From NCBI GenBank assembly GCA_026125795.1, contig JAHCKM010000001.1, positions 2,046,001 through 2,110,000 on the forward strand: a DNA stretch of 64,000 bases. Reading direction: 5' to 3'. Position numbers and translations under genes: made by a program. The notes beneath the pieces were generated by a model. It searched no databases, was not told the DNA's origin, and saw only the letters and a list, made by a program, of their open reading frames with translations. This document shows positions 1 through 48,141 of this stretch, piece after piece (within the stretch, counting starts at the first letter, position 1; the number at the start of each line of letters is the position of its first letter). The stretch comes from Burkholderiaceae bacterium. Lineage in GTDB: Bacteria > Pseudomonadota > Gammaproteobacteria > Burkholderiales > Burkholderiaceae_C.

Positions 1-403
1 CCAGCGACGTGAACGTGCAGCCGAGCATCACGTTCGTGCCGCTGGCGCGCGTGGCGTCGGCCAGGATGCGCGCCAGCACCGGCCGCATGATGCCGCCGCT
101 GCCCGGCACGTCGGGCCCGGCGATGCGCGGGGTCGGCACCTCGCCCAACGGCGCGCCGTGCGGCGCGCAGATCTTCACCCCATCCGATGCGGCGCCCTCG
201 CGCAGGAAGGCTTCCAGGATGCCGAGCTGGCGGAACGCGCGCAGCGTGGCGCCGCCCAGGCTGATGCCGGCGCCGTAGTTGCGCCAGCCGGCATCGATCT
301 CGGCCAGGTCGACATCGGCACCGAGCTTGCGCAGCTCGATCGCGGCCGACATGCCGGAAAAGCCGCCGCCGATGATCAGGATGCGTCGGGCTGCGAGTGT
401 CAT
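1..403 (-). CDS. FAD-dependent monooxygenase, N-terminal part (cut by window edge)
   Basis: The reading frame starts at an ATG at 403, preceded by GGAGG, and runs off the left edge, giving 134 visible residues. They contain the N-terminal FAD-binding Rossmann motif (ILIIGGGFSGMSAA at about residues 8-21). A later conserved stretch ending in GIMRPVLARIL resembles the region where class A flavoprotein hydroxylases bind FAD. This is the UbiH/salicylate-hydroxylase-like fold, so NAD(P)H-dependent aromatic hydroxylation is the likely activity; the substrate is unknown. It is the last visible gene of the eleven-gene minus-strand cluster and the third flavin monooxygenase in it. A dispersed GC-rich repeat lies in the 73 bp separating it from the Rieske ferredoxin gene. 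Confidence 0.85.
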   Translation of the reverse strand, partial: MTLAARRILIIGGGFSGMSAAIELRKLGADVDLAEIDAGWRNYGAGISLGGATLRAFRQLGILEAFLREGAASDGVKICAPHGAPLGEVPTPRIAGPDVPGSGGIMRPVLARILADATRASGTNVMLGCTFTSL

Positions 404-438
404 GGCAGCCTCCGACGAGCCGCCTCTAGGAGGCTGGG

Positions 439-474
439 CCCCCTCGGGGGGCAGCGAACGCAGTGAGCGTGGGG
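439..474. repeat. Dispersed GC-rich intergenic repeat, copy A
   Basis: This 36-bp segment is the reverse complement of the segment at 21613-21648 with a single mismatch. It combines a near-palindromic run of C, a short TCG or CGA centre and a run of G with a GCAGCGAACG-type arm. It sits in the gap between two genes of one apparent operon. Related elements lie near 13189, 19522, 21560, 24440, 32697, 37838 and 39846. Confidence 0.7.
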
Positions 475-476
475 GT

Positions 477-839
477 TCATGGTGTCTCCTCTAATATCGT
501 GTTAGTGACGTGCACCGTGCCGTCGTCGTGCACGGTCAGCGGCACCGACGTCAGCGCCTGGCCCAGGCACGGCCCCAGGGTGCAGCGGCCGGTCTGGATC
601 TCGAACTGCGCGCCGTGCGCGGCGCAGACGATGCGGTCGCGCGCGGCATTGAGGTAGGCGTGCTTGCGCCAGGCCATCGGGGCGCCGTGGTGCGGGCAGA
701 CGTTGAGCCAGCCGTGCAGCGCTTGCCCCTGCCGCACGACGAAGAACGCGTCGCGGCCGCTACCGCGCGGGTCGAAGCCGCGCGAGTCGCCGTCGGGCAG
801 GTCGTCGAGGTGGCACAGGTGCATGGTGGGCTCGGGCAT
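477..839 (-). CDS. Rieske [2Fe-2S] ferredoxin-like protein
   Basis: This 120-residue protein carries one Rieske cluster motif, CPHHGAP at about residues 50-56 and CAAHGAQF some 20 residues later, which supply the two Cys and two His ligands. The length fits a ferredoxin component rather than an oxygenase subunit. The start MPEPTM at 839 is chosen because its ATG overlaps the stop of the upstream VOC gene as ATGA. A longer in-frame extension to 878 would run back into that gene. It probably passes electrons to an oxygenase encoded in the same cluster (the VanA-like protein at 4205-5260 is a candidate), although no cognate reductase gene is visible. Confidence 0.85.
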   Translation of the reverse strand: MPEPTMHLCHLDDLPDGDSRGFDPRGSGRDAFFVVRQGQALHGWLNVCPHHGAPMAWRKHAYLNAARDRIVCAAHGAQFEIQTGRCTLGPCLGQALTSVPLTVHDDGTVHVTNTILEETP

Positions 840-1765
840 CAGGGCTTCGCGTCGCCCGGCGGCCCCGAGGGCGCCCACTTCTCACGGTACTGGAACAGGA
901 AGGCCTGCGAGGCATCGGCGTTCAACGCGGTCTCGCGCGCGGTCCAGCTGTCGTCGTGCAGATCCATGTCGGCGTCGTACTCGACATGACAGCCCAGCGG
1001 CGAGTTGAAGTACCAGAACCAGTTGCTGCCGTAGAGGTGGCGCCCCGGGCCCCAGAAGCTCTGGTAGCCCTTGTCGACGAAGCGCGTGCCGGCCAGCACC
1101 ACCTCGGTGGGCCCGCCCATGTGGAAGGTGAAGTGCTCGCAGCCCTTCATGAACGGCGGCGTCTGGATCATGAACAGCGTGTGGTGATCCAGCGTGCCGG
1201 CCGGACGCAGGAACGGGCCCACGTCGGTGAAGCGGTCGGTGCACACGAAGCCGAGCCGCTTGTAGAACGCCTCGGCCTTGGCGGCGTCGGGCACGAAGTA
1301 GACGACGTGCGACAGCGAGCGCGGCAGCGCCGGCATGTCCGGCGTCACGCCGATCGCGTTGGGCCCGCGCTGCGGCGCTGCGCCCGGCGCGTTGACGGCT
1401 TCCGCGGCCAGTGCGAGCGGGCGGCGCACGGTCACCTGGAAGGCGAGCGCGAAGCCCATGTCGTCCTGCGCACAGAGCACGCCGTCGCGTCGCGTGACCT
1501 CGCGGTCGCGCCGCAGCTCGGCCTCGATCGCATCGAGCGTCTTGCTGTCGGCCACGCCGTAGACCGTCTCGCGCAGCATGCTCGCGGTGCCCAGGCCGGG
1601 CGGCAGCGATGCATCGTCTTTGGCACGGATCACGACGGCGGTGCCATCGAGCGCCTCGAAGCGGCCGTGGCCTGCATCGGTCAGGCCGTAGTCGATCAGG
1701 TACTGGCGGCACGCCGCGACGTCGTCGACGCCGAAGACCAGCGCGTCCGGTCCGATGATGTTCAT
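839..1765 (-). CDS. VOC-family extradiol dioxygenase-like protein
   Basis: This 308-residue protein has two tandem vicinal-oxygen-chelate modules, the layout of 2,3-dihydroxybiphenyl 1,2-dioxygenase. The C-terminal module (about residues 150-290) keeps candidate metal ligands: His in SHVVYFVP, His in LDHHTLF, and Glu in CHVEYDAD. Ring cleavage of a catechol-type intermediate is therefore plausible, though VOC proteins also include isomerases and glyoxalases. The ATG at 1765 is preceded by AAGGAGA. It lies 23 bp downstream of an alpha/beta hydrolase gene, the usual partner for meta-cleavage products, and is translationally coupled to the following Rieske ferredoxin gene. Confidence 0.85.
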   Translation of the reverse strand: MNIIGPDALVFGVDDVAACRQYLIDYGLTDAGHGRFEALDGTAVVIRAKDDASLPPGLGTASMLRETVYGVADSKTLDAIEAELRRDREVTRRDGVLCAQDDMGFALAFQVTVRRPLALAAEAVNAPGAAPQRGPNAIGVTPDMPALPRSLSHVVYFVPDAAKAEAFYKRLGFVCTDRFTDVGPFLRPAGTLDHHTLFMIQTPPFMKGCEHFTFHMGGPTEVVLAGTRFVDKGYQSFWGPGRHLYGSNWFWYFNSPLGCHVEYDADMDLHDDSWTARETALNADASQAFLFQYREKWAPSGPPGDAKP

Positions 1766-1788
1766 CAGCAGGTTCTCCTTGAATGGGT

Positions 1789-2955
1789 TCAGGCCGCCGT
1801 GCGAGCGCCGAGGGTCTCGGCCACCCAGTCGGCGATGTAGTGGCCGGCGTTGATGCTGTTGTCGAAGCTGGCGTGCTGCACGCCGCCGCCGCGCTCTGTG
1901 AAGATCTTCAACTCGCGCTTCGGGCTGTTGACGAGCTGCTCGTAGGTGCGGTGCGCCCACTTCAGCGGGATCTGCGAGTCCTTCTCGCCGTGCGTCACCA
2001 GGAACGGCACGCGGATCTTCTCCACCACGCCGTCCAGGTGCACGTGCTCGGCGATCTTCATGAACTCGTCGATGTCCTTCGCGCCCCAGACCCAGCAGAC
2101 GTGCGCCCAGTAGTGCGGCACCGGGAAGTTGCCTTCCTTCTCGAGGCGACGCTTCTGCACGTCGCGCCAGTCGTGGTTGGCACCCCAGGCCACGCCGCAG
2201 GCGAAGCGCGGCTCCATCGCCACGGCGCGCGGGCAGTAGTAGCCGCCGAGCGAAACACCCTCGCAGCCGATGCGCTTCGGATCGACAACGTCGCGTGTCT
2301 CGAGCCAGTCGACCACGCGGCTGGCCCAGTGCTCGGCGTCGTAGCGCGCGGTCAAGCCGTGCAGCCGCAGTGCCTCGCCGGTGCCGGGCTGGTCGACGAT
2401 CAGCGACGAGACGCCGCGCTGCGCCAGCCATGCGGGCAGGCCGACCAGGTACTTCATCTCCTTGGTCGAATCGAGGCCGTTGAGCTGCACGAGGATCGGC
2501 GCGCGTTGCCCCGGTCGCAGCCCGTCGGCCGGGCGGTACAGCGCGGCGAGTTGTTTGCCCTCGTACGGAATCTCGACGCGCCGCACCGGGTCACCGAGCA
2601 GCCGCAGACCTTTCTGGAACAGCGCGAGCTCGCGCTGGTAGATCGCCATCCGGCCGGCCAAGCCATGCGCCTGCAGCCGCTCGGCGGTGGTCAGGTAGGC
2701 CGACGCACGGCGGTACTTCTCGCCCGCCGAGAGCAGGCGGCCGCGCGCCTCGTCCTCGGCCGCCAGCTCGCACAGCGTGTCGGCCATCGTGACCCAGGTC
2801 TCGCGGAAAGCCTGGGTGCCGGCGGCGTCGGGCGCCTTGGCGGCCTCCTGCAGCGGCGCGCACATCATCTCGATCTCGCCGATGCGCGCGCCCATCTCGA
2901 TGGCCAGGTTCACCGAGAGGTTCCAGACGTAGTTGGTGGGAAAGTACTTGAACAT
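1789..2955 (-). CDS. Alpha/beta hydrolase, FrsA / dihydroxypseudooxynicotine-hydrolase-like
   Basis: The 388-residue protein has a long helical N-terminal cap (about residues 1-130) and a C-terminal alpha/beta hydrolase core. The nucleophile elbow is GVSLGGYY near residue 235. THGEKDSQIP supplies the likely acid region and GGVQHASFD the catalytic His. The cap-plus-core layout matches enzymes related to 2,6-dihydroxypseudooxynicotine hydrolase, which cleave C-C bonds, and the FrsA esterases. In this operon it would be expected to hydrolyse a ring-cleavage or diketone product. The exact reaction cannot be read from the sequence. Confidence 0.85.
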   Translation of the reverse strand: MFKYFPTNYVWNLSVNLAIEMGARIGEIEMMCAPLQEAAKAPDAAGTQAFRETWVTMADTLCELAAEDEARGRLLSAGEKYRRASAYLTTAERLQAHGLAGRMAIYQRELALFQKGLRLLGDPVRRVEIPYEGKQLAALYRPADGLRPGQRAPILVQLNGLDSTKEMKYLVGLPAWLAQRGVSSLIVDQPGTGEALRLHGLTARYDAEHWASRVVDWLETRDVVDPKRIGCEGVSLGGYYCPRAVAMEPRFACGVAWGANHDWRDVQKRRLEKEGNFPVPHYWAHVCWVWGAKDIDEFMKIAEHVHLDGVVEKIRVPFLVTHGEKDSQIPLKWAHRTYEQLVNSPKRELKIFTERGGGVQHASFDNSINAGHYIADWVAETLGARTAA

Positions 2956-2973
2956 CGTGTGCTTCTTTCGCGT

Positions 2974-4200
2974 TCAGTGGGCCGAGATCGGCAGCGTCTC
3001 CATCTGCGTCTCCGCGTCCTTCAGGTAGTTGTTGACCAGCATCGCTTCGAGGAACCGGGTGTGGTCGAACACCAGGTCGCGCAGCACCGACAGCGGCCAC
3101 GGCGTGCGGTGGAACAGAGTGCCGAGATGACGCGCCATCCTGGCGTTCTTGTTGGTGTAGGCGACGCGCCGGCGGTCGTACAACGCCAGCCCTCGGGCCA
3201 GCGCGTCGCGCTGCGCAAGGTCCGCGCCTTCGAGGCACTTGGCCAGCCACCAGCCGTCCTCGATCGCCATGCCCATGCCGTAGGCCGCGTAGGGCGACAC
3301 CGGGTGCACGGCGTCGCCGACGAAGGACACGCGGCCCTTGGACCAGCTGGCAAGCGCCGGCCGGTTGTAGACCTCCCAGCGGAAGCAGTTGCGCTCGAAA
3401 TCCGTCGTCGCGGCGAGCCGGGGCAGTGGGTCGGCCCAGTCGCGCACGTGGTTCGTCAGGTGCGAGCGCACGTCGCCTTCGAACGTCTGCCCTTCGTTCC
3501 AGGGCTCGACCAGCCACCACTCCACGGCGGGCCGGCCTTCGTGCAGGATCGGGAAGAAGCTCGCCTGCACGCTGCGCGAGTGCGAGATCCAGCCCACGCC
3601 GGGCGGCAAGCCGTCGCAGTGGCACCACGCGAGCCAGACCTGGATGCCGCAGTGGAACAGGCCCAGGTCGCCGAAGGTCTGCTGCGCCACCGCGGAGCGG
3701 ATGCCGTCGGCGCCGATCAGCAGGTCGGCCTCCCACGAGCTGCCGTCGTCGAAGTGCGCGGTGATCGAATCCGCGGCCTCGACGTAGCGCGTGAAGCGCT
3801 TGTTGGCGTGCAGCAGCTCCGGCGGCGTCACCGCAAGCAAACGTTCGATCGCCGCCGAGCGCAGCATGCCGTAGTGCCAGCCAGGGATGCCGGCGCGCGC
3901 CTCGGCACGCGGGTTGAACGGCAGCCGCGCGCGCAGCCGGCCGCGGTGGTTGCGGAACTCGGTGACGCCGTAGGCGCCGAGGTGGCTGATGTCGACGCCC
4001 ATGTCGCGCATCACCGACAGCACCGGCAATGACAACAGCACCGCGCCGCCGAGCGGCTTGACGGCGTCCTGCCGCTCGAACAGTCGCACCTCGTGGCCCG
4101 CGCGGTAGAAAGCCAGCGCGGCGCTCAGGCCGCCGGGGCCGGCACCGATCACGGCCACGCGCCGGCGCGGCGCTGGGGCGAATGAGGGTGTCGTGCTCAT
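2974..4200 (-). CDS. FAD-dependent aromatic monooxygenase (salicylate/3-hydroxybenzoate hydroxylase type)
   Basis: This 408-residue class A flavoprotein hydroxylase shows all three family fingerprints: VAVIGAGPGGLSAALAF at about residues 15-31 for FAD, a GADGIRSAV motif near residue 165 (DG motif), and FVGDAVHPVSPYAAYGMGM near residue 300 for the FAD pyrophosphate. The start lies 4 bp after the stop of the Rieske oxygenase gene. It likely hydroxylates an aromatic ring with NAD(P)H and O2. Substrate assignment would need the upstream chemistry of the cluster. Confidence 0.92.
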   Translation of the reverse strand: MSTTPSFAPAPRRRVAVIGAGPGGLSAALAFYRAGHEVRLFERQDAVKPLGGAVLLSLPVLSVMRDMGVDISHLGAYGVTEFRNHRGRLRARLPFNPRAEARAGIPGWHYGMLRSAAIERLLAVTPPELLHANKRFTRYVEAADSITAHFDDGSSWEADLLIGADGIRSAVAQQTFGDLGLFHCGIQVWLAWCHCDGLPPGVGWISHSRSVQASFFPILHEGRPAVEWWLVEPWNEGQTFEGDVRSHLTNHVRDWADPLPRLAATTDFERNCFRWEVYNRPALASWSKGRVSFVGDAVHPVSPYAAYGMGMAIEDGWWLAKCLEGADLAQRDALARGLALYDRRRVAYTNKNARMARHLGTLFHRTPWPLSVLRDLVFDHTRFLEAMLVNNYLKDAETQMETLPISAH

Positions 4201-4204
4201 CGCT

Positions 4205-5260
4205 TCATGCCGCGGTGGCGGCTGTTTGCGCAGTGGCTTGCGCCGCGATCAACGCATCGAGCTTGCGGCGCGCGCGCACGGCGCCGGCGTCGCTGGGCAG
4301 CAGCACCGGCTTGAGCGACCAGAACTCGGCCGCGCCGATGCGCCGCTGCTGCGCCTCGAGCATCGGCTTGTCCTGCTGCGTGAACGCGAACTCGATGACC
4401 GGCTTGATGGCCGCGTTGGCGTGTGGGTCGATCGCGAAGTTGCGCGTGCTCCAGTACCAGTAGTGCGTGCGGCCGGCGGTCTCGGGTGTCGCCAAGTGCA
4501 GGTTGGCGGTGTCCACGCCGCGCTCGCGCGGCTCGCCCTGCAGCGTGGCGCCCACGCGCAGCAGCATCGCGCACGGCGCCGTCCACGTCACCTCGGTCCA
4601 TTGATCGGTGGGGCGGCCGTGTTCGCGCAGGTGATCGTCGAACGCGGCCGGCGCGCAGTCGCCGCTGGAGCGCCAGGTGATGCGCACGCTGCGCTCGCCA
4701 AGGTCCTCCACCTGCGCCTTGGCGCGCGTGATCGCGCCGCTGCCGAGCGACCCGGCGTGCAGGAAGTCGGCATGCGTCAGGTCCATGATGTTGTCGGCCA
4801 GCAGGCGGTAGTCGCACGCCGTCGGCAGGTGGCCGCGGATGGTGGCGTCGGCCGGCGCACGCGTCACGGTGGAGAAATCAGGGATCAGTGATTCATCGGC
4901 AGCGGCCGCATCGCCGGCCCACAGCCACAGCAGGCCGTCGCGCTCGGCCACGGCCCACGGCTTCACCGTCGCCGCCTTGGGGATCACGCCCGCACCATGC
5001 GGGTTGTGCACACAGGCGCCCGTGCCGTCGAAGCGCAGGCCGTGGTATGGGCACTGCACCGCGGCGCCGCCGTCGCACAACGTGCCGGCCGACAGCGGCG
5101 CGAAGCGGTGCGGGCAGCGGTCGTGCAAGGCGCACACGCTGCCATCGGGCCGGCGGAAGAAGACCAGCGGCTCGTCGAGCAACGTGCGGGCGAGCAATTG
5201 GCCCGCAGCCAACTCGTCGGCGAATCCAGCCACGTACCACGCACGGCGAAGGTAGGTCAT
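4205..5260 (-). CDS. VanA-like Rieske oxygenase alpha subunit
   Basis: This 351-residue oxygenase has an N-terminal Rieske domain (CPHRFAP near residue 48 and CPYHGLRF near residue 69). A C-terminal catalytic domain carries the mononuclear iron site in NIMDLTHADFLHAG (Asp/His/His). Length and opening resemble vanillate O-demethylase and related single-subunit oxygenases that perform demethylation or monooxygenation. The ATG at 5260 overlaps the stop of the MMPL transporter gene as ATGA. No reductase of the VanB type is present in the visible cluster, so electrons must come from the small Rieske ferredoxin or from a protein encoded elsewhere. Confidence 0.92.
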   Translation of the reverse strand: MTYLRRAWYVAGFADELAAGQLLARTLLDEPLVFFRRPDGSVCALHDRCPHRFAPLSAGTLCDGGAAVQCPYHGLRFDGTGACVHNPHGAGVIPKAATVKPWAVAERDGLLWLWAGDAAAADESLIPDFSTVTRAPADATIRGHLPTACDYRLLADNIMDLTHADFLHAGSLGSGAITRAKAQVEDLGERSVRITWRSSGDCAPAAFDDHLREHGRPTDQWTEVTWTAPCAMLLRVGATLQGEPRERGVDTANLHLATPETAGRTHYWYWSTRNFAIDPHANAAIKPVIEFAFTQQDKPMLEAQQRRIGAAEFWSLKPVLLPSDAGAVRARRKLDALIAAQATAQTAATAA

Positions 5261-7719
5261 GGCACGGAGCTCCGAAGTCCTTGCCCGCGGCTGCTGCACA
5301 GCGGCAGCGGACGTGCACCCAAGGCCTTGGCCTTCAGGTCGGGTGTGGCCGTTCGAGGTGCGAGGAGGAAGTGCGCCAGCGCCGGCAGCAGCACCAGCGC
5401 ACCGAGCATGTTCCACAGGAACATGAACGCCAGCAGCAAGCCCATGTCGGCCTGGAACTTGATCGGGCTGGCCACCCAGGTGATCACGCCGATGGCCAGC
5501 GTGACGCCGGTCAGCAGCACCACCTTGCCGGTGAACAGCAGCGCGCGGTAGTAGCTCTCCGACAGGCTCTTGCCCTGGCGCAGATTGGCCAGCGTGACGC
5601 TGAGGATGTAGAGCGCATAGTCCACGCCGATGCCGACGCCGAGCGCGATCACCGGCAGCGTGGCCACTTTCACGCCCATGCTCAAGCTCACCATCAGCGC
5701 CTCGGCCAGCACCGAGGTCAACATCAGCGGCAGCACCGCAACCACCACCGCGCGCCACGAGCGGAAGGTGATGAAGGCGAGCAGCATCACGGCCGCGTAG
5801 ACCAGCAGCAGCATCGTGCGCCACGCCTCCTTCACCACGATGTTGGTCGCCGCCTCGATGCCGGCCGAGCCGGCGGCGAGCAGGAACTTCACGTCGGCGC
5901 TGTCGTTGGCCGCCGCGAATGCCTGCACGTGCTCGACCACGCGCGTCAGCGTCTCGGCCTTGTGGTCGCGCAGAAAGACGTACAGCGTCAGCAGCGAGCA
6001 GGCGTCGTTGTACAGGCCGCGCGGCGCGCCGGCCGTCACGGTGTTGAGCATGTCCTGGTTGGGCAGGAACTCGTACCACTTGGGGTTGCCTTCGTTCAGC
6101 CCGGCGAGCACGCGCCGGTTCAGCAGCGCGAGCGAGTTCGTGCTCTCCACGCCGTCGAGCTGGCGCAGCTGCCACTCGAGCGCGTCGATCTTGTTCAGCG
6201 TGTCGTACAACGAGCAGCGGCCGTCGGGTGTCTTCACCATCACGGCCAGCACGTCGCTCGACGCACCGTAGGCGGCGTTGACGAACGCGACGTCGCGGTT
6301 GTAGCGGCTGTCAGCGCGCAGCTCGGGCGCGCCGGGATCGAGGTCGCCGATCTTCAACTGCTGGCTGACCGCGAAGCCGAGCGCCGCGAGCGACGCGCCG
6401 ACGGCGATCGCCAGCGCCGCGTGCCGGCGCTGCGTGTAGCGGTCCAGAAAGGCCCACAGCGGATGTTTGCCCGCGCCGGCCGCATCGGCCGCCTCGGCGC
6501 GCAGGCTGCGCTGCGCCGCCTGCGCGCTGACGCCGGTGTAGCTCAGCAGGATCGGCAGCAGGATCAGGTTGGTGAAGATCAGCACCGCGACGCCGAGCGA
6601 CGCCGCGATCGCGAGCTCGCGGATGACGGGGATGTCGATCACCAGCAGCACCGCAAAGCCCACCGCATCGGCCAGCAGCGCGGTGAGGCCGGCGAGGAAC
6701 AGGCGGCGGAACGTGAAGCGCGCGGCCACGAGCTTGGGCAGCCCGCGGCCCACGTCCTGCATGATGCCGTTCATCTTCTGCGCGCCGTGGCTCATGCCGA
6801 TGGCGAAGACGAGGAAGGGCACGAGGATCGAGTACGGATCGAGCGCGTAGCCCAGCGTGGGCAGCAGCCCGAGCTGCCACACCACGGCCACCAGCGAGGC
6901 CGTGACCACCAGCGCGGTCGAGCGCACGCAGCGCGTGTACCAGAACACCATCGCCGCGGCGATCAGCACCGCCAGCGCGAAGAAGCCGAGCACCGCGCGC
7001 ACGCCATCAATCAGGTCGCCGACGATCTTGGCAAAGCCGGTGATGTGGATGCGCACGCCCTTGGACTCGTACTTCTCGCGCAGCGCCTCCAGCCGCGCGG
7101 CGAAGGTTGCATAGTCGAGCGGTCGGCCTTCGGCATCCCGGGCCAGCAGCGGCACGTAGATCACGCTCGACTTGGCGTCGAGCGCGACGAGCTGCCCCAC
7201 CTCGCCGGAACGCGCGATGTTGGCGGCCAGCTGCTGCAGGCTGCGCGCCGAGCCGTCGTAGCCGTCGGGGATCACCGGTCCGCCCTCGAGGCCCTCCTCG
7301 GTGACGCCGACCCAGCGCGTGGTCGGCGTCCACAACGACTTCATCTGGTTGCGCGCCACACCGGGCACCAGGAAGACCTCGTCGCTGAGCTGGCGCAGCG
7401 TGTCGAGGTAGCGCGCGTCGTAGAGCGTGCCGGCCGGGTTCTCCACCGCGATGCGCACCGCGTTGCCCAGACCGGTCAGATCGGCCTGGTGCGCCAGGAA
7501 GTTGCGGATGAACGGATGGTGGGTCGGGATCGTCTTCTCGAAGCTGGCGTTGAGCTGCAGCCGCGTCGCCTGCCAGCCGAGCACCGCGGTGACCAGTGCG
7601 CAAAGCAGCAGCACCCATCCGCGGTGATTGAACAGCGCACGCTCGATCAGCGAGCCGGAGCGCGCATCGAAACCCGACGCGGCGTCGGTGCGTGCGGCAG
7701 GAACGGCGGGGGCGATCAC
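5257..7719 (-). CDS. RND/MMPL-family transporter
   Basis: The 820-residue membrane protein starts at a GTG at 7719, chosen because it overlaps the upstream stop as GTGA. It has a transmembrane helix near residues 35-52, a large periplasmic loop, a block of helices with a short conserved RND segment (FAIGMSHGAQKM), then a repeated loop-plus-helices half. The second half contains ALGVGIGVDYALYIL, typical of RND superfamily pumps. This is the MMPL/SSD-type single-polypeptide layout, not an AcrB tripartite pump. It clusters with YCF48, DUF1329 and DUF1302 genes, a combination recurrent in proteobacterial loci for hydrophobic compounds. I infer substrate movement across the envelope; the direction is unknown. 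Confidence 0.9.
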   Translation of the reverse strand: MIAPAVPAARTDAASGFDARSGSLIERALFNHRGWVLLLCALVTAVLGWQATRLQLNASFEKTIPTHHPFIRNFLAHQADLTGLGNAVRIAVENPAGTLYDARYLDTLRQLSDEVFLVPGVARNQMKSLWTPTTRWVGVTEEGLEGGPVIPDGYDGSARSLQQLAANIARSGEVGQLVALDAKSSVIYVPLLARDAEGRPLDYATFAARLEALREKYESKGVRIHITGFAKIVGDLIDGVRAVLGFFALAVLIAAAMVFWYTRCVRSTALVVTASLVAVVWQLGLLPTLGYALDPYSILVPFLVFAIGMSHGAQKMNGIMQDVGRGLPKLVAARFTFRRLFLAGLTALLADAVGFAVLLVIDIPVIRELAIAASLGVAVLIFTNLILLPILLSYTGVSAQAAQRSLRAEAADAAGAGKHPLWAFLDRYTQRRHAALAIAVGASLAALGFAVSQQLKIGDLDPGAPELRADSRYNRDVAFVNAAYGASSDVLAVMVKTPDGRCSLYDTLNKIDALEWQLRQLDGVESTNSLALLNRRVLAGLNEGNPKWYEFLPNQDMLNTVTAGAPRGLYNDACSLLTLYVFLRDHKAETLTRVVEHVQAFAAANDSADVKFLLAAGSAGIEAATNIVVKEAWRTMLLLVYAAVMLLAFITFRSWRAVVVAVLPLMLTSVLAEALMVSLSMGVKVATLPVIALGVGIGVDYALYILSVTLANLRQGKSLSESYYRALLFTGKVVLLTGVTLAIGVITWVASPIKFQADMGLLLAFMFLWNMLGALVLLPALAHFLLAPRTATPDLKAKALGARPLPLCSSRGQGLRSSVP

Positions 7720-8818
7720 TTCGCGGGCTCCGGTTCGGTGTCCACCGACAGCACGCCTTGCACGCTGAGCGCGAGCAGCGGCGCGCCGCTGCGCGGCAGC
7801 AGGCCGGTCAGTGGCGGCAGCGGCGCGCGGTGCAGCGGCACGAGCCGGTCGCCGCGCAGCGCCATCACGTAGCCGGCCTGGTTGGTGGCCAGCAGCGCGC
7901 CGTCTTCGCCGATGGCGGTGGCGGTGATCGACACCGGCATCGGCGCCGCGACCGCAGACCAGCTGGCGCCGCCGTCGCGCGAGCGCCAGACGTTGCCGCG
8001 CAAGCCGGCGAGCACGATGTCGTTCGCGCCCAGCAGCTCGGCGCTGAAGAAGCTGCCCTTGTACGGCGTCTCGATGCGGCCGAAGCTCCGGCCGCCGTCG
8101 TTCGACAGCAGCACCAGCCCCTGCTCGCCGGCGACGAGCAGCGTGTCGGCGTGGCGCCGCAGCGCGTACAGGTGCAGGCCCTTCGGGTTGTCCAGCCGCG
8201 GCATCCACGAGACCCAGCGTTCGCCGCCGTCCTCGGTGGCGAGCGCGAAGCCGTAGGCACCGACGACGACATAACGCTTGGCGTCGAGCACCAGCACGTC
8301 GAGCAGCGGCTTGTCGGCGCCGTCGGCCACCAGGCGCTCGGCGTCCTTCAGTGCGCGCGTGTCGCCGCTGGCGCGCGCCGCCTCGAGCGCGAGCTGCGCG
8401 ATGCGCTGGCCATCGAGCTTGCGCGTCCAGCTGCGACCGCCGTCGCCGCTGACGAGCACCGTGCCGGCGTGGCCGACCGCGACGCCGTGCTCGGCATCGG
8501 CAAATCGCACCGCGGTGAGCGTCACGCTGACCGGCGCAGGCGCCTGCGTCCATCGTTTGCCGCCGTCGTCGGACAGCGCCACCAGGCCGCGCTCGCCGAC
8601 GGCGACGATGCGCGCTCCGGCCTGCGCCGCGCCGATCAGCACGGCGCGCTCGACCTGCCGCACCGGAAGCGTTGATGCTGCGCGGCATCGCCGGCAGGAA
8701 CGGCACCGCCGGCGTCGCCGGCGGGGGCGGCGCCGCGGGCGTGCAGCGCCGCGCCGGCGAGCAGCGCGCTCAGCAGCAGCGTGCCCGCGCGGCGCGAAAG
8801 GACATGCCGGCAACCCAT
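7716..8818 (-). CDS. YCF48/BNR-repeat periplasmic protein, apparent frameshift
   Basis: The C-terminal frame (7716 to about 8680) encodes repeated beta-propeller blades of the photosystem-stability-factor type, such as GLVALSDDGGKRW, GTVLVSGDGGRSW and GLVLLSNDGGRSF. In that frame the N-terminus becomes an implausible arginine run. An adjacent frame instead gives a good Sec signal peptide beginning MGCRHVLSRRAG at 8818 and ending near ALHA. The two frames must join between about 8680 and 8735, a region of C and G runs, by a one-base deletion or equivalent. This may be a real lesion or a sequencing error. The gene is coupled to the MMPL gene by a GTGA overlap, and the protein is probably a periplasmic partner of that transporter. 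Confidence 0.75.
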
Positions 8819-8849
8819 GGGCAACACGTCAGCGACGGTTCAATGGCCT

Positions 8850-10202
8850 TCAGCGCACGCCTTCGCCGGCCATCGCGTCCGGCGTGAACACGCTTTCAGG
8901 GAAGCGCGGCTTGATCGCGTACTGCGAGGCCTTGGCGTTGTAGAGGTTGCCGATGAACGCCTGGCCCGACACCAGGTCGTTGAAGCCGAACGATCCGATC
9001 GGGTTGCCCGGCAGGTCCGGCGCGACGAAGGTCTGCGCCCACAGCGTCTTCCACAACTGGCCGTTGGCGTCCCAGCGATCGCCGAGCACGCAGATCCAGG
9101 TGTCCTCGTCGCAGTAGTAGCGGCTCTTGGGCGCCTGGTGGCGCTGCCCTTGGCGCAGCGTGGCCTCCACCACCCACACGCGGTGCAGCTCCCAGCGCAT
9201 GTGCTCGGGGTTGAAGTGGTTCTTCGTGATGACGTCGGCGTCGCTCTTGGGCTGCAGGAACCGGTTCGCGTTGTACGGAATGAACATCTCCTGCTTGCCG
9301 ATCAACTTCCAGTCGAAACGGTTGAGCCGTCCCGTCCAGACCTCGATCTCGTCGAAGCTCATCACGCCGGCGGCCGCCGGCGTGGGCGTGTCGCAGCATG
9401 GGTTGGGCAGCTTGCGCACGCGCCGCTGGCCGGTGAGGTACACCCAGCCCTGGCTCTTGCTGCCATCGAGGTTCTCGCGCCCGACGATCGCCTCGCCGGC
9501 GCGGATCGGCGGCCCGGCATTGATCAGCCGAATCAGCCAGAAGTCATTGCTCTTGGCGAAGGTCTCGACGCTACCGTCCTGAAAGTAGTACGGCATCTGC
9601 TGGTCGGCGCGGCCGTCGGTGGTGAGCACGGCCTTGCCGTCGGCGGTGAGCTGGTACTGGTTGATGTTGAATTCCCATGACGTCCCGCGCCAGCGCAGCA
9701 GGTGGTTCCACATCACCTCGGCGCCGGTCTTGGCAATGGGGAACGGGATGCCGCCATAGGCTCCCTCGACCACGTCGCCGTTGAGCCTGGCGCGCGTCGC
9801 GTTCTTGAACGTGTTGTCGTAGACCCATTGCGGCGCGGCCGCGGTGCGGTGGGTCTTGTAGACATCGATGCGGTAGCTGTCGGGGTACTTCTTCAGCATC
9901 GCCTTCTGCCCATCGCTCAACTTGGCGGCGTACTGCTCGACGTTCTTCGCGTTGATCGAGTACAGCGGCTTCTCGTCCTTGAACGGATCGCCGCGCCGGC
10001 CGCCGGGCTTGTCGCCGGCGATCGGCGTGATGTGACCTCCGCTCCACGCGGGGATCGTGCCGTCGTTGTTGCCGGCCTTCTCGGCGCCGAACGGCGTCAG
10101 GTCGGACTTGAGCTTGGCGGCTTCGTCGGCGGACACGGCCGCGACGGCCGGCCCGAAGGCCAGCGCGATGCACGCGGCCAAAGTGATGCGGGTGAGCGTC
10201 AT
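8850..10202 (-). CDS. DUF1329 periplasmic/outer-membrane lipid-type protein
   Basis: The 450-residue protein begins with a Sec signal peptide (MTLTRITLAACIALAFG, cleavage after AVAA) and continues with the DUF1329 signature SADEAAKLKSDLTPFGAEKAGN. The later MPYYFQDGSVETFAKSNDF and aromatic-rich stretches fit the LolA/LolB-like fold expected for this family. AGGAGG precedes the ATG at 10202. It is adjacent to a DUF1302 gene, its almost constant neighbour in proteobacteria. I infer a role in moving a hydrophobic molecule between the outer membrane and the periplasm. Confidence 0.88.
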   Translation of the reverse strand: MTLTRITLAACIALAFGPAVAAVSADEAAKLKSDLTPFGAEKAGNNDGTIPAWSGGHITPIAGDKPGGRRGDPFKDEKPLYSINAKNVEQYAAKLSDGQKAMLKKYPDSYRIDVYKTHRTAAAPQWVYDNTFKNATRARLNGDVVEGAYGGIPFPIAKTGAEVMWNHLLRWRGTSWEFNINQYQLTADGKAVLTTDGRADQQMPYYFQDGSVETFAKSNDFWLIRLINAGPPIRAGEAIVGRENLDGSKSQGWVYLTGQRRVRKLPNPCCDTPTPAAAGVMSFDEIEVWTGRLNRFDWKLIGKQEMFIPYNANRFLQPKSDADVITKNHFNPEHMRWELHRVWVVEATLRQGQRHQAPKSRYYCDEDTWICVLGDRWDANGQLWKTLWAQTFVAPDLPGNPIGSFGFNDLVSGQAFIGNLYNAKASQYAIKPRFPESVFTPDAMAGEGVR

Positions 10203-10218
10203 CGGAGACCTCCTGTGA

Positions 10219-11943
10219 TCAGAACGTGCGGCGCAGCGACAGCGCCAGGTGGTTGCGGTCGGCCAGCGGATTGCCTTCACCGAACACTGGTGTTCCGCCG
10301 GTGAGGATGGGCGAGAAGTCGACGAACGGAACCGCCTTGCCGATGTAGTGCGTGTAGGTCAGCGCGAACTGCCACACGCCGAGGTAGTTGCCCTCGAGGC
10401 CGACGTTGGCGCTGCCGGTCTTGGCGGCACCCCAGCCGGCGCCGGTGACAGAGGAGTTGCCGTCCAGCACGTAGCGCAAGCCCAGCGGCACGCTCAGGTC
10501 CAGCCCGGGCAGCGCCTGCCGGTAGCTCGGCGTGAAGATCAGCTGCAGCGCCGTGGCATCGCGCGTGGCCGCCTTGTCGAGCTCGTTGTTGGGATCGTTC
10601 TTCGACAGCACGCGGTTCCACGCGATCTCCGCCAGGAGCACGGACTCGCGCGCGATGAAGCTCGGCCCGAAGGTGGCCAGCGTCGACAGGTTGATGTGCG
10701 CGGTGCGCCCGAGCGCCGGCTGCGGCTGCGGCGCGCCGAAGCCGCCGGGGAAGAGCATGTTGGTGCTGCGCAGCGGCATGTCGTCGCGCACCGACGCTTC
10801 TGCGGCGACGTTGAAGTCGCCGAACGAGTGCGAGGCGCTGACGCCGAAGGTCTTGACGTCCTCGGGGAACTTGTAGAACCACGTGCCCGGCAACGTGCCG
10901 AACGGGCTCGGCGGGGCGGCAGGGTTGAGGTTGCCGTAGAGCTGGCCCGACTTGTCGTGGAAGCGCGCGTAGTACACGCCCAGGTCGGTCTCGCCGAGGC
11001 GCCACTTGAGCTGCAGGCCGAACTGGCCGCTGTCCTTGGGCTCCTGGTCGCCGCCCGGCGTCAGCACGTAGTTGCCGGCGATCGGCGCCGGTGGCGGGAT
11101 GCTGACGAACTCCGGCTGCTGCGAGCCCCACGGGATGTTGGCGGTGGAGAAGTAGCTGCCCGATGGCGGCAGGCGGTCGGACTCCCAGCGGAACTGCACG
11201 TAGCCGCCCACCGAGACGGCCGGCGTCACCTGCAACTGCGCCGACAGTTGCGGCACCGGGCGGATGATCTCCTTGAACTGCGCGTTGGGCGATGCCAGCA
11301 GCTTGTCGATGTCGACCGGGCCCTGTGCGCGCGCGATGCCGTTGTCGCCGAAGAACAGGCTCTCGCCGTACTGCAGCGCGTGGCGGCCGGCGCGCGTGGT
11401 CAGCTTCATGCCGTTGCCGAAACGCCAGCCGCCGAACACGAAGGCGTCGAGCACCTCGGCCTTCTCGCCGGCGATCTTCTTGGTGCGCTCGGGGAACTCG
11501 TCGAACGGCGTCTGGCCGATCGTCGGGTCGTTGTCGGCCTTGGTCTTGCGGTGCAGCTTGTCGTCGTACCAGGCGGCGCCGCTCACGCGCAGGCCGAAGT
11601 CGCGGCGCCACACCGCGTCGAACTCCGACAGCAGGTCGGCGCGCGCCGACACCACGCCCTTCTTCTGGAAGTTCTGGTCGCCGGCGTTGAAGTTGAGCGC
11701 CTGCGGGAACGAGAAGGTCGCCGGCGCCGGCGGCGGCGCACCGGTGGGCACCTGGCGGAACGAGTCCTTCAGCTTCGGATCCGCGGCCTCGGTGCGGTAC
11801 TTGGTGCTCAGGCGCACGCTGTTGTCCCAGCGCACCGACCAGTCGGGATTGCCGGTGTCGATCTCGAACGCCTGGGCCGCTCCGGCCAGCAGCGCCGCGG
11901 CGGCGGCGATGGCCGTCAGCGGCGGCAGCATGTTTCTTCGCAT
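10219..11943 (-). CDS. DUF1302 outer-membrane beta-barrel protein
   Basis: This 574-residue protein has a signal peptide ending in LAGAAQA followed by FEIDTGNPDWSVRWDNSVRL, the opening typical of DUF1302. The body alternates aromatic and charged strands and ends in Phe (SLRRTF), as expected for a beta-barrel inserted by the BAM complex. GAGGAG precedes the ATG. It lies 37 bp after the first flavin monooxygenase gene and 16 bp before the DUF1329 gene. A channel or receptor for a hydrophobic substrate is the likely role. Confidence 0.88.
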   Translation of the reverse strand: MRRNMLPPLTAIAAAAALLAGAAQAFEIDTGNPDWSVRWDNSVRLSTKYRTEAADPKLKDSFRQVPTGAPPPAPATFSFPQALNFNAGDQNFQKKGVVSARADLLSEFDAVWRRDFGLRVSGAAWYDDKLHRKTKADNDPTIGQTPFDEFPERTKKIAGEKAEVLDAFVFGGWRFGNGMKLTTRAGRHALQYGESLFFGDNGIARAQGPVDIDKLLASPNAQFKEIIRPVPQLSAQLQVTPAVSVGGYVQFRWESDRLPPSGSYFSTANIPWGSQQPEFVSIPPPAPIAGNYVLTPGGDQEPKDSGQFGLQLKWRLGETDLGVYYARFHDKSGQLYGNLNPAAPPSPFGTLPGTWFYKFPEDVKTFGVSASHSFGDFNVAAEASVRDDMPLRSTNMLFPGGFGAPQPQPALGRTAHINLSTLATFGPSFIARESVLLAEIAWNRVLSKNDPNNELDKAATRDATALQLIFTPSYRQALPGLDLSVPLGLRYVLDGNSSVTGAGWGAAKTGSANVGLEGNYLGVWQFALTYTHYIGKAVPFVDFSPILTGGTPVFGEGNPLADRNHLALSLRRTF

Positions 11944-11980
11944 CGGTCTTCTCCTCGTTGTGTCTTCGAATGGATGGAAC

Positions 11981-13102
11981 TCAGGCCGGCTGCGCGACCG
12001 TGCGCATCAGGCGCTGCATCAGCAGGCTCAGGTCGGCTCCACCGTCGGGCTGCAGGTCCCAGCGGGCGGCGGTGGTGGTGATCTCGTGCACCTGGCGCAC
12101 GCGTGCGCTGCGACGGCGCTCGAAGGCGTGGAACAACTCGTCGCGATCGCTGGTGGTGCCGAGCAGATCGGCGAGCACGCGCGCATCCTCGACCGCCTGC
12201 GCAGCGGCCTGTCCGAAGTGCGGCGGCAGCGTATGCGCACAGTCGCCCACCGCCAGCACAGGGCCGCGATGCCAGGGGCCATCGAGCACGCCGGACAACA
12301 CCGGCCGCGATGCGACCGGCGCGTCATCGGCGATGCGCGCGGCCAGCTCGCGCAGCGGCGGCGCAAACGACTGCAGTGCGCTGCGCATCTGCGCCGCCGG
12401 CGTTGCGGCATCGGCCTGCGGCACCGGCGCGCTGACGGCGATGCCGGCCATGTCGTGCTGCACAGGCAGCACCATCGCGCGACGGCCGGGGCCTCCCATC
12501 GCGATCAGCGGCCGGTCCAACCCCGGCGGGCGTTTGGCCAGCGTGTAGCGCCAGATCTGGCCGAGCGGTTGCGCCGGTGGATCGTTCGGGAACAGCGCGA
12601 TGCGCAGCTCACTGCCGGCGCCGGTGGCCAGCAGCACCAGATCGGCCTCGTGGCATGCGCCATCGGCCAGCCGCACGCGGGCATGGCCCGCGTGTTGCTC
12701 GATCGCCTGCACACGCGCGCCGCGATGCAGCGCAGCGCCGTGGTTGCGCGCGGCGCTTTCGAGCAGCGCGTGCAGGTCGCCATGCTGGATGCCGATGGCG
12801 GCCGGCCAGCGCGGCCCTGCAAGGCGCTCGGTCGGCAGCTCGAACAGGTGCCGGCCCTGACGGTCGAGCACGTCGATGCCGTGGTACGCGAAGCCGGCGC
12901 GCACGCAGTCGTCGGCGACGCCCAAGTGCGCCAGATCGCGCAGCATGCCGGGCACCACATCGATCGAGGCCGGCAGCGCGCGCGCCGCCGGCGCCTCGTC
13001 GAGCAGTTGCACGCGCAGGCCCCGGCTGGCTGCCGCCAGCACGCAGGCGAGGCCCGCGATGCCGGCACCGACCACGCACGCGCGCAGCAGGTGCTGCGTC
13101 AT
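11981..13102 (-). CDS. FAD-dependent monooxygenase (UbiH/PHBH-like)
   Basis: The 373-residue protein shows an FAD Rossmann motif (ACVVGAGIAGLACVLAAA, residues 8-25) and the C-terminal GDCAHTLPPHFGQAAAQAVE motif of class A hydroxylases. The DG motif is weak (LVLLATGAGSELR in place of a clear GADG), so its chemistry may differ from classic phenol hydroxylases. The start MTQHLL at 13102 is chosen because AAAGG lies upstream. It is the first gene of the minus-strand cluster and is divergent from the LysR gene 271 bp away. Confidence 0.88.
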   Translation of the reverse strand: MTQHLLRACVVGAGIAGLACVLAAASRGLRVQLLDEAPAARALPASIDVVPGMLRDLAHLGVADDCVRAGFAYHGIDVLDRQGRHLFELPTERLAGPRWPAAIGIQHGDLHALLESAARNHGAALHRGARVQAIEQHAGHARVRLADGACHEADLVLLATGAGSELRIALFPNDPPAQPLGQIWRYTLAKRPPGLDRPLIAMGGPGRRAMVLPVQHDMAGIAVSAPVPQADAATPAAQMRSALQSFAPPLRELAARIADDAPVASRPVLSGVLDGPWHRGPVLAVGDCAHTLPPHFGQAAAQAVEDARVLADLLGTTSDRDELFHAFERRRSARVRQVHEITTTAARWDLQPDGGADLSLLMQRLMRTVAQPA

Positions 13103-13188
13103 CGCAGCGCCTTTCGCCAAAGTGCAGGCGCGAGTTCGCCCCCCGCATGGCCGCCAGCCATTCGTTGTCTCCGTTGTGGTCGTTTGAC

Positions 13189-13255
13189 TGCCCCCAGGGC
13201 CGGGCTGCGCCCGGCCCGCCCCCCGCGGGGGTCAAGGCCGCTTGGGGCGGCCCGG
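13189..13255. repeat. GC-rich intergenic repeat with a perfect hairpin
   Basis: The divergent intergenic space holds a C/G-run element of the same general kind as the other dispersed repeats. It includes a perfect 9-bp stem with a 3-base loop at 13197-13217 (GGGCCGGGC, TGC, GCCCGGCCC). No U tract follows, so it is not a canonical intrinsic terminator. Confidence 0.5.
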
Positions 13256-13355
13256 CACGTCCTTGGGGATCGGGTTGACGAGAGATTACGGAGGCTGAGG
13301 CGCCGCGCAAAATGGTTTGTGTCCATGCGACGCATCGACGCGGCGAATACTTTTC

Positions 13356-13365
13356 GGGTTAACCC
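13356..13365. promoter_or_regulatory. Palindrome GGGTTAACCC upstream of the LysR gene
   Basis: A perfect 10-bp palindrome ends 8 bp before the GTG start of the LysR gene. LysR proteins bind partly palindromic sites in such divergent spaces, so it could be part of an autoregulatory site. The distance to the catabolic operon start (about 255 bp) argues that any activating site lies elsewhere. Confidence 0.3.
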
Positions 13366-13373
13366 TCTGCTAC

Positions 13374-14300
13374 GTGCGTTTCAACAAGCTCGACCTCAAC
13401 CTGCTCGTCGCCCTCGATGCGCTGCTCACCGAGCGCAGCATCACGCGCGCCGCGGAGCGGCTGCACCTGTCGCAGTCGGCGATGAGCAACTCGCTCGGCC
13501 GGTTGCGCGATTACTTCGAGGACGAGCTGCTGGTGCAGGTGGGCCGGCAGATGGAGCCGACGCCGCGCGCGGCGGTGTTGCGCGAGGCGGTGCGCGACGT
13601 GCTGATGCGCATCGAGACCTCGGTGGCGGCGCAGCCCGAGTTTGATGCCACCGCATCGGATCGCGAGTTCCGGCTGTTCATCTCTGACTATTCGATGGCC
13701 GTTCTGATGCCGCACGCGCTGGAGCTGGCCGCCCGGCAGCGCAGCACGGTGCGCTTCAACCTGCTGCCGCAGGTTTCGCACCCGGCGCGCGGCCTCGAAC
13801 GCGGCGAGGCCGACCTGCTGATCATTCCGAAGGCCTACACCTCGCCCGATCACCCGGCGGAGATCGTGTTCGAAGACGGCTTCGTCTGCGTCGTGTGGGA
13901 GGGCAGCAGCCACGCGCGCGAGCCGATGACCTTCGAGCGTTATGCCGGCGCCGGCCACGCGGTGATGGTGCCGGTGAACACATCGCAACCGGCTTTCGAG
14001 AGCTGGTTCGTACAGCGCTACGGCATGTCGCGGCACATCGAGTTGACAACCTACAGTTTCGCGGCGCTGCCGCTGCTGGTGGTGGGCACCGAACTGGTCG
14101 CCACCGTGCATGCGAGGCTCGCGCGGCGCCTCGCGGCGGCGCTGCCTGTCAAGCTGCTGCCGATGCCGCTGCCGATGCCTCCCTTCGAGCAGGCACTGCA
14201 ATGGCACAAGTACCGCTCGCTCGATCCCGGGCTGCTGTGGCTGCGCGGCCTGTTGCAGCAAGCCGCGCAGGCCATGCCGGTCGAGGCGGCAGCGGCGTAG
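13374..14300 (+). CDS. LysR-family transcriptional regulator (NodD-like subgroup)
   Basis: The 308-residue protein begins with the helix-turn-helix VRFNKLDLNLLVALDALLTE and continues TRAAERLHLSQSAMSNSL, the form seen in NodD, LinR and other aromatic-inducible LysR regulators. A substrate-binding effector domain fills residues 90-300. I place the start at the GTG at 13374, because family members begin with MRFNKLDLNLL and the upstream extension does not look coding. Its divergent position next to the flavin monooxygenase/Rieske/VOC cluster makes it the probable activator of that operon, responding to a pathway substrate or intermediate. Confidence 0.88.
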   Translation: MRFNKLDLNLLVALDALLTERSITRAAERLHLSQSAMSNSLGRLRDYFEDELLVQVGRQMEPTPRAAVLREAVRDVLMRIETSVAAQPEFDATASDREFRLFISDYSMAVLMPHALELAARQRSTVRFNLLPQVSHPARGLERGEADLLIIPKAYTSPDHPAEIVFEDGFVCVVWEGSSHAREPMTFERYAGAGHAVMVPVNTSQPAFESWFVQRYGMSRHIELTTYSFAALPLLVVGTELVATVHARLARRLAAALPVKLLPMPLPMPPFEQALQWHKYRSLDPGLLWLRGLLQQAAQAMPVEAAAA

Positions 14301-18713: not shown

Positions 18714-19523
18714 ATGCCGCTGTCGTTCACGTCCGCCTCCGGAATCCTGGCCCAGTTCGATCTGCTGGCGGTGTCGCACGCCGACGCGGTGACCCACGTG
18801 CGGTTGAACCGGCCCGCCAAGCGCAACGCATTAAGCGACACGCTGATTCAGCAACTGCACAGCTGTTTCGTCAACCTGCCCAAGGCCACGCGCGCGGTCG
18901 TGATGAGCGGCGAGGGCGATCACTTCTGCGCCGGGCTCGACCTGTCGGAGCTGGTGGATCGCGATGCCGCCGCCGGCGTGCTGCACTCGCGCATGTGGCA
19001 CGCAGCGTTCGAACAGCTGCAGTTCGGCGGCGTGCCGGTCGTGGCGGCGCTGCACGGCGCGGTGGTGGGCGGCGGACTCGAGCTCGCGTCGTCGTGCCAC
19101 GTGCGCGTGGCCGATGAAACCGCGTACTACGGCCTGCCCGAAGGCCAGCGCGGCATCTTCCTTGGCGGCGGCGGCTCGGTGCGCATCACGCGGCTGATGG
19201 GCGTGGCGCGCGTCACCGACCTGATGATGACCGGCCGCGTGTACGACGCGCAGGAAGGCCTGCACGCCGGGCTGTCGCAGTACGTGGTGCCTGCCGGTGA
19301 GGCGCTGGCCAAGGCCATCGAGCTGGCCGAGCGCATCGCCGGCAACGCGCCGATGTCGAACTACGCGGTGATGCACGGGTTGCCGCGCATCGCTGACCAG
19401 TCCATGGGCGAGGGCCTGTTCACCGAGTCGCTGATGGCGGCGGTGGCCGAGAGCACGCCCGAGGCCAAGGATCGGCTGCGCGCGTTCCTGGACAAGCGCG
19501 CCGGCAAGGTGGTCAAGAAGTGA
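18714..19523 (+). CDS. Enoyl-CoA hydratase/isomerase (crotonase) family protein
   Basis: The 269-residue crotonase has the CoA-binding and oxyanion-hole elements VRLNRPAKRNAL (residues 28-39), FCAGLDLSEL near residue 65 and AVVGGGLELASSCH near residue 108. A GLPEGQRGIFLGGGG loop carries a possible catalytic Glu. The sequence is not that of the hydroxycinnamoyl-CoA hydratase-lyases, whose SEVNWG motif is absent. It would act on a CoA thioester made by the ligase encoded next and is first in the plus-strand operon. Confidence 0.9.
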   Translation: MPLSFTSASGILAQFDLLAVSHADAVTHVRLNRPAKRNALSDTLIQQLHSCFVNLPKATRAVVMSGEGDHFCAGLDLSELVDRDAAAGVLHSRMWHAAFEQLQFGGVPVVAALHGAVVGGGLELASSCHVRVADETAYYGLPEGQRGIFLGGGGSVRITRLMGVARVTDLMMTGRVYDAQEGLHAGLSQYVVPAGEALAKAIELAERIAGNAPMSNYAVMHGLPRIADQSMGEGLFTESLMAAVAESTPEAKDRLRAFLDKRAGKVVKK

Positions 19524-19667
19524 TCGCCGCACGGCCGCCCGAAGGCGATCAGCCCCCCGCGGGGGGAGCAGCCGCAGGCTGCAGGGGGCAGACACGGTCG
19601 ATCGCCGCACGGCCGCCCGAAGGCGATCAGCCCCCCGCGGGGGGAGCAGCCGCAGGCTGCAGGGGGC
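19522..19667. repeat. Perfect 68-bp tandem direct repeat
   Basis: The segment 19522-19589 recurs base for base at 19600-19667 with a 10-bp spacer, giving a 78-bp period. Each copy contains CCCCCCGCGGGGGG and a GCAGCCGCAGGCTGC palindrome. The first copy begins inside the crotonase stop codon and the second ends 4 bp before the ligase ATG. The whole intercistronic gap is therefore a duplicated member of the dispersed GC-rich repeat family. Confidence 0.9.
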
Positions 19668-19671
19668 GCAC

Positions 19672-36335: not shown

Positions 36336-36356
36336 CGGAGTCTCCAACAAGTGCGT

Positions 36357-43604: not shown

Positions 43605-43695
43605 CACGGGACTCCTCGACAGCAAGAACGGCACTCTCCGCCTGTGGCGCCGGAGCACGCTCCATGCGGGAAGCGCCTTGCGGTACAGCACACGA

Positions 43696-43709
43696 TGCAT
43701 TATTGTGCG
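43696..43709. promoter_or_regulatory. Candidate BoxR operator 1
   Basis: TGCATTATTGTGCG fits TGCA-N6-TGCA with one mismatch. It lies at the predicted bclA transcription start (about 43712 on the minus strand) and covers TATTGT, a possible boxR -10. The BzdR/BoxR family is known to bind TGCA-containing palindromes of this spacing. Confidence 0.65.
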
Positions 43710-43718
43710 TGCGCTGCG

Positions 43719-43747
43719 ACGATAGTTTTGTCGCCGCGGCCTGTCAA
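43719..43747 (-). promoter_or_regulatory. bclA promoter
   Basis: On the minus strand a perfect -35 TTGACA (43742-43747) is followed by a 17-bp spacer and a -10 TATCGT (43719-43724). The boxC promoter has exactly the same hexamers and spacing. Operator 2 touches the -35 and operator 1 covers the start point. Confidence 0.8.

Positions 43748-46713: not shown

Positions 46714-48141
<1,428 letters not shown>

Follow-up and report, generated by a model that had tools for sequence, protein, structure and literature searches.

The first 14,300 nucleotides of a 64,000-nucleotide stretch from a Burkholderiaceae bacterium (assembly GCA_026125795.1, contig JAHCKM010000001.1, positions 2,046,001 to 2,110,000; the whole stretch is called the window below) hold what is very probably an fde-type flavonoid-degradation operon, with an AmeABCD-type cassette at the place of the FdeA porin and three accessory oxygenases added. 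The families of the enzyme core, their order, their orthology to fde genes and their conserved catalytic residues are established from the sequence, which indicates that the operon is a variant of the known pathway for naringenin-type flavonoids. Most likely, its enzymes hydroxylate flavonoids at C8 and open their A ring by meta-cleavage, and the swapped transport set and extra oxygenases may widen the range of flavonoids used. Facts from published work draw on PMC11069340, PMC11303751, PMC8552027, PMC10799723, PMC6394551 and PMC13101534.

Organization of the operon

An earlier note, made from the sequence alone, had described eleven co-directional genes under one LysR. Pfam searches found every family that it named: three FAD_binding_3 flavin monooxygenases (FMO1–FMO3), a Rieske oxygenase with a VanA_C domain, a Rieske ferredoxin, a Glyoxalase/VOC protein, an S9-like alpha/beta hydrolase, the envelope proteins MMPL, YCF48-like, DUF1329 and DUF1302, and the adjacent LysR. 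By Pfam and open reading frames (ORFs), the eleven genes share the minus strand, running from about position 13102 down to base 1, while the LysR gene is divergent, on the plus strand. Eleven is also an undercount, since base 1 of the window falls inside the eleventh gene, which encodes FMO3, and the operon runs on into the adjoining stretch (L021, where position equals window position plus 18000) with five further genes, for an MFS protein, a cyclase, a cupin, an FAA hydrolase and an epimerase. Intergenic gaps from FMO1 to MFS, measured from a plausible start to the preceding stop and hence resting on start codons that we picked, are all 73 bp or less, and the 4-bp overlaps that the note had reported are found at YCF48/MMPL (GTGA) and MMPL/VanA (ATGA). 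The locus can thus be kept as a single catabolic unit beside one LysR, the genes of which are probably co-transcribed. Ring hydroxylation, extradiol cleavage, C–C hydrolysis and possible demethylation, as well as a hydrophobic substrate served by its own envelope set, likewise proved to be the right reading of the gene content. The label 'uncharacterised', with no match to a named pathway, has to be given up: the enzyme core is syntenic with the characterised fde operon of Herbaspirillum, and the envelope set follows the published AmeABCD order.

An enzyme core orthologous to fde

As fde reference we used a locus (L137) in a genome from the genus of Herbaspirillum huttiense. Bar the IS110-type insertion described below, it shares with the operon the order hydrolase–VOC–ferredoxin–FMO–MFS–cyclase–cupin–FAA hydrolase–epimerase, and identities to its copies are 84.5% for the VOC protein, 80% for the hydrolase, 73% for FMO3 and 54% for the LysR. 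In a tree of 103 FMO rows, built by a quick method that leaves deep branches unsure, FMO3 falls in a large clade with Herbaspirillum FMOs. The first gene of L137 belongs to PF13557, which fits FdeA, whose relative is compared in print to a phenol-degradation protein. The names in print also fit an fde identity: fdeA is given to the first gene, FdeC to the dioxygenase of ring A, FdeD to the Rieske carrier, FdeE to the monooxygenase and FdeR to the LysR. The locus thus resembles the fde operon of Herbaspirillum seropedicae, which acts on naringenin, in its divergent LysR, its hydrolase-to-epimerase order and the 73–85% identity of VOC, hydrolase and FMO3, but differs by the absence of FdeA and the presence of the DUF1302–DUF1329–YCF48–MMPL set, FMO1, FMO2, the VanA-like oxygenase and the IS110-type copy. 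No FdeA-like gene was matched in the window or L021 at E 1e-3, so the operon does not begin with FdeA; we treat FdeA as an exchangeable part, because 34 of 80 compared loci hold an ame-type set in its stead.

The candidate extradiol iron ligands His, His and Glu are invariant in 91/91 VOC rows, the hydrolase Ser, Asp and His in 83/83 rows, and the Rieske C-x-H and C-x-x-H motifs are kept in 87/87 ferredoxin rows; we take these residues to be catalytic from their families. At E 0.001 the hydrolase finds matches in 14 of 60 relatives, one of them close (83%) besides the genome of the window itself, the next at 45%. Its closest PDB relative is 2,6-dihydroxypseudooxynicotine (DHPON) hydrolase, and the hydrolase of the isoflavone-degrading ifc cluster is likewise described as DHPON-hydrolase-like, its deletion being reported to have no effect on daidzein degradation.

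That ifc cluster, from Variovorax sp. V35, shares with the operon an FMO 8-hydroxylase, a VOC dioxygenase, the DHPON-hydrolase-like protein and a cupin, and ifc-type loci have MMPL genes close by. Its gene order, however, is unlike that of the operon, and relative to four ifc stand-ins (L138–L141, from the genus of Variovorax sp. YR216) identity is only 65–68% for the window VOC and 36–37% for FMO3; with the fde-type copies it reaches 84.5% and 73%. Identity of any window FMO with IfcA was ruled out, the values to the four ifc-type FMOs being 29–30% for FMO1, 26–28% for FMO2 and those just given for FMO3. Between L137 and the same four loci we computed 63.7–66.4% for the VOC proteins and 35.0–35.8% for the FMOs, close to the printed 65.8% for IfcB/FdeC and 36.3% for IfcA/FdeE, which supports the fde assignment of L137. 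MMPL genes 77–83% identical to that of the window occur in or at the edge of the ifc-type VOC stretches L138, L139, L140 and L142, and ame-type sets may accompany ifc clusters too.

The natural substrate of a core of this kind might be not a flavonoid but some kindred polyphenol, for example a chalcone, dihydrochalcone or xanthone, as the reported confinement of IfcA to isoflavones, set beside the broad range reported for FdeE, would allow; with VOC and hydrolase 80–85% and FMO3 73% identical to the Herbaspirillum copies, we consider this improbable.

An exchangeable entry module

In the AmeABCD system of Castellaniella defragrans, DUF1302 (AmeA), DUF1329, YCF48/COG4447-like and MMPL/RND proteins are encoded in the same order as DUF1302–DUF1329–YCF48–MMPL here. 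The likeness is one of four families in identical order, and the settings differ, being a flavonoid operon here and a monoterpene island there. Because sets like this also accompany monoterpene genes, we considered a pathway for steroids or terpenoids; we rejected it, as the core enzymes are fde orthologues, and regard it as extremely improbable.

We compared 80 named loci, several of them on short contigs. The order hydrolase, VOC, ferredoxin, FMO3 is constant in 70 of them, which is more than chance, and all eight core genes are present in 40, exactly in operon order in 32 of these. The full ame-type set occurs in 34 loci, always in one order, and FdeA in 22, whereas the two occur together in none of the 80. 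The remainder have a TonB receptor (7), a fused TRAP transporter (1), a partial ame-type set (6) or none of these (10), this last class including short contigs and perhaps distant kinds that escaped TonB and TRAP queries drawn from the same loci; in L069 and L074 a TonB receptor sits elsewhere within the locus. On a hydrolase plus VOC tree of 82 rows, 65 of them labelled, the fewest module changes were 12 against 24.1 with shuffled labels, so the entry module partly tracks ancestry and was swapped repeatedly; well supported branches alone force five changes for the ame-type set and four for FdeA.

Castellaniella AmeABCD confers monoterpene tolerance and is interpreted as an exporter, and protective efflux of flavonoids or their intermediates, with no part in uptake, is a reading to be taken seriously here, although we put it at somewhat short of even. 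Against it, the ame-type set replaces FdeA and never accompanies it, as expected of one shared job, and deletion of a DUF1329 gene is said to impair growth on phenanthrene. In a benzene culture, a DUF1329–YCF48–MMPL cluster was tied by its authors to nanopods and transport.

A complete ame-type fde operon with generic product names lies on a 761-kb plasmid of Diaphorobacter sp. HDW4B (NZ_CP049906.1, L150). Cultured bacteria that carry the ame-type operon include Piscinibacter caeni, Aquabacterium terrae and Methylibium rhizosphaerae. Plasmids also encode FdeC-like VOC proteins: seven from Bradyrhizobium, of which five have soybean as their listed source, with identities of about 62%, and five from Roseomonas mucosa with 63–64% (hits H6–H10 and H14–H20).

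Accessory oxygenases and a proposed place for demethylation

The content of the slot that separates the ame-type set from the hydrolase varies. In seven of the 80 loci it is occupied by a VanA-type gene (L026, L027, L028, L037 with two, L040, L041, and L045 with a VanB-like gene), an FMO2 relative (86%) in L029 and L030, and a universal-stress/hemerythrin fusion in four (L027, L035, L062, L076); a SnoaL-like gene is found in 11 loci, including FdeA and TonB-type ones. VanA-type genes outside the slot were seen in six further loci, at 47% identity beside VanB-like genes in L092 and L099, and at 31–34% in L032, L075, L080 and L098.

The VanA-like protein of the window aligns with the dicamba O-demethylase DdmC at 137 identical of 336 aligned residues (41%), and its Rieske ligands and iron-site N, D, H and H are kept in 16/16 VanA rows. 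It differs from DdmC in carrying Leu and Val at the positions of Asn230 and Trp285, and its operon holds no ferredoxin-reductase gene. In DdmC, Asn230 and Trp285 are residues that bind the carboxylate group of dicamba, which speaks against a small substrate with a carboxyl group. The enzyme may O-demethylate methylated flavonoids.

Formononetin and biochanin A, isoflavones with a 4'-O-methyl group, are reported substrates of IfcA, whereas 4',7-dimethoxyisoflavone is not accepted, which suggests that the enzyme needs a free 7-OH; by analogy from IfcA to FdeE, demethylation would precede the FdeE step. The published work that we could search (most subscription journals lying outside its scope) gave no link of fde genes to DUF1329/AmeABCD or to a Rieske O-demethylase.

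FMO1 has matches in 14 of the 80 loci, each of which carries the full ame-type set, and it groups with other FMO1 proteins in a clade of 13 rows. FMO2 clusters with the L029 and L030 proteins only, its sole other match among the 80 loci being at 29% in L040. Order-wide searches with FMO2 and with the VanA-like protein at E 1e-80 each returned one of 300 genomes, that of the window; as these genomes were an even draw from a larger group and at most six candidates were scored in each, the result shows no more than a scarcity of close copies.

For the VanA-like enzyme, FMO1 and FMO2 we infer the roles, and all three might come in at a later stage, working on ferulate-, vanillate- or hydroxybenzoate-like fragments of B-ring or phenylpropanoid origin. 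Vanillate is the classical compound that VanA enzymes demethylate, the best PDB match of FMO2 is a small-ring enzyme, 6-hydroxynicotinate 3-monooxygenase, and aromatic-CoA genes including boxABC lie inside the window. Nonetheless, the Leu and Val substitutions, given the presumed role of the DdmC residues, disfavour a small carboxylated substrate, and in the seven loci with a VanA-type gene in the slot this gene directly precedes those for ring attack and is not placed among the tail genes, so that we think late action rather unlikely.

A possible partner of the ferredoxin FdeD

Both VOC and ferredoxin genes are present in 85 of 89 loci, as neighbours in 83, and ferredoxin and FMO3 genes are neighbours in 72 of 83, counts that are biased because the loci were collected by VOC. 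In all nine loci where these two linkages differ, the ferredoxin stays with VOC. This hints that FdeD serves the extradiol dioxygenase and not the monooxygenase, whereas the published reading is FdeED.

Regulatory region and IS110-type insertion

The LysR is FdeR-like in being divergent and 54% identical. The gap between LysR and FMO1 contains 13 T-N11-A sites against a mean of 6.75 expected, a number reached in 14 of 2000 dinucleotide shuffles, and the published fdeR–fdeA region is described by such sites, 14 in all. The same count in L137 also gave 14, equal to the published number, but since 12.3 were expected and 673 of 2000 shuffles reached 14, we did not use it as support. The gap also holds a GC-rich palindrome-like stretch (13236–13252), with one match in the window against 0.12 expected.

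Beyond the window edge, the MFS and cyclase genes are separated by a 1494-bp stretch, one of four identical copies in the genome, which carries an IS110-family transposase gene on the opposite strand. This stretch enters the MFS stop codon and ends about 57 bp before the likely cyclase start. Both proteins look whole, since the MFS protein still aligns with its relatives over the full length and the cyclase does so from its likely start. The insertion may uncouple the last four genes of the operon.

A working model

In the mechanism that we propose, with the reactions of FdeE/FdeC and IfcA/IfcB taken from the literature, the FdeR-like LysR would sense a flavonoid and activate the divergent operon. 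The DUF1302–DUF1329–YCF48–MMPL set would carry the hydrophobic flavonoid through the envelope, in a direction that we infer. The DdmC/VanA-type Rieske enzyme would strip an O-methyl group, with that at position 7 of the A ring as the preferred target. FMO3 (FdeE) would hydroxylate C8 next to the free 7-OH, the VOC enzyme (FdeC) would meta-cleave the resulting catechol ring and the hydrolase at the FdeB position would split a C–C bond. Cyclase, cupin, FAA hydrolase and epimerase would presumably hand the fragments on. We offer, tentatively and as one possible combination, a joint reading in which a fixed A-ring-cleaving core is fitted with two kinds of exchangeable part. One is a module for entry, which may be an FdeA porin, an AmeABCD-type RND cassette or, at a few loci, a TonB receptor; the other is a slot open to O-demethylases and extra FMOs. 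Here the DdmC/VanA-type enzyme would free the 7-OH for FdeE, the RND set would serve uptake, and FdeD would keep the extradiol dioxygenase active without serving the monooxygenase.

Table 1. Features of the operon and its regulator. Positions are those of the window, except where L021 is given (adjoining stretch, outside the window).
Feature	Position	Strand	Basis or remark
LysR-type regulator, FdeR-like	ORF 13317..14300, likely start ~13374	+	Pfam HTH_1 + LysR_substrate; 54% to LysR beside fde operon in L137
Divergent intergenic region, likely LysR operator and operon promoter	13103..13376	.	13 T-N11-A sites
FMO1, accessory FAD monooxygenase	11981..13102	-	FAD_binding_3; 30% to FMO3
DUF1302 outer-membrane protein, AmeA-like by position	10219..11943	-	Pfam
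DUF1329 protein, AmeB-like by position	8850..10202	-	Pfam
YCF48-like protein, AmeC-like by position	7716..8813	-	Pfam PSII_BNR
MMPL/RND transporter, AmeD-like by position	5257..7719	-	Pfam MMPL
DdmC/VanA-type Rieske oxygenase, candidate O-demethylase	4205..5260	-	Rieske + VanA_C; DdmC alignment
FMO2, rare accessory FAD monooxygenase	2974..4200	-	FAD_binding_3
Alpha/beta C–C hydrolase, FdeB by position	1789..2955	-	80% to L137
VOC-type extradiol dioxygenase, FdeC	839..1765	-	84.5% to L137
Rieske ferredoxin, FdeD	477..839 (start 839 or 824)	-	Pfam Rieske
FMO3, probable FdeE-type flavonoid 8-hydroxylase	1..403 (start only); whole gene L021:17276-18403	-	73% to L137
MFS gene	L021:16093-17259		outside window
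IS110-type element	L021:14604-16097		outside window, between MFS and cyclase
Cyclase (PF04199)	ends at L021:13743		outside window
Cupin	L021:13143-13724		outside window
FAA hydrolase	ends at L021:12134		outside window
Epimerase	L021:11202-12134		outside window; 48% identical to L137 epimerase

Other genes in the window

Genes passing NCBIfam cut-offs for the box pathway encode a benzoate-CoA ligase family protein (42021–43940, minus strand), BoxC (44900–46561), BoxB (46714–48141) and BoxA (48184–49455), the last three on the plus strand, and the pathway could process benzoate released from flavonoids whose B ring is unsubstituted. The segment 17688–27548 encodes an amidohydrolase, a crotonase, a PRK12582-like acyl-CoA synthetase, a thioesterase and a branched-chain-amino-acid-type ABC transporter, and a second PRK12582-like synthetase is encoded at 34539–36350. 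A hydroxycinnamate branch at 18714–21531 was considered and is not claimed, the best model for the hydratase, among the best 25 of 49 models, being a general crotonase.

Implications

At plant roots flavonoids act as signals and as toxins, and the bacterial routes characterised for their mineralisation are few. The comparison shows that fde-type cores are not confined to Herbaspirillum but occur in many other Burkholderiales, the enzymes being kept while the entry part is swapped; what is new is that FdeA and the full ame-type set never share a locus and that the entry module has changed at least 12 times on the enzyme tree. The VanA-like oxygenase is a testable candidate for the first step on methylated flavonoids, and the operon provides a setting in which to ask whether AmeABCD-type RND cassettes import or export.

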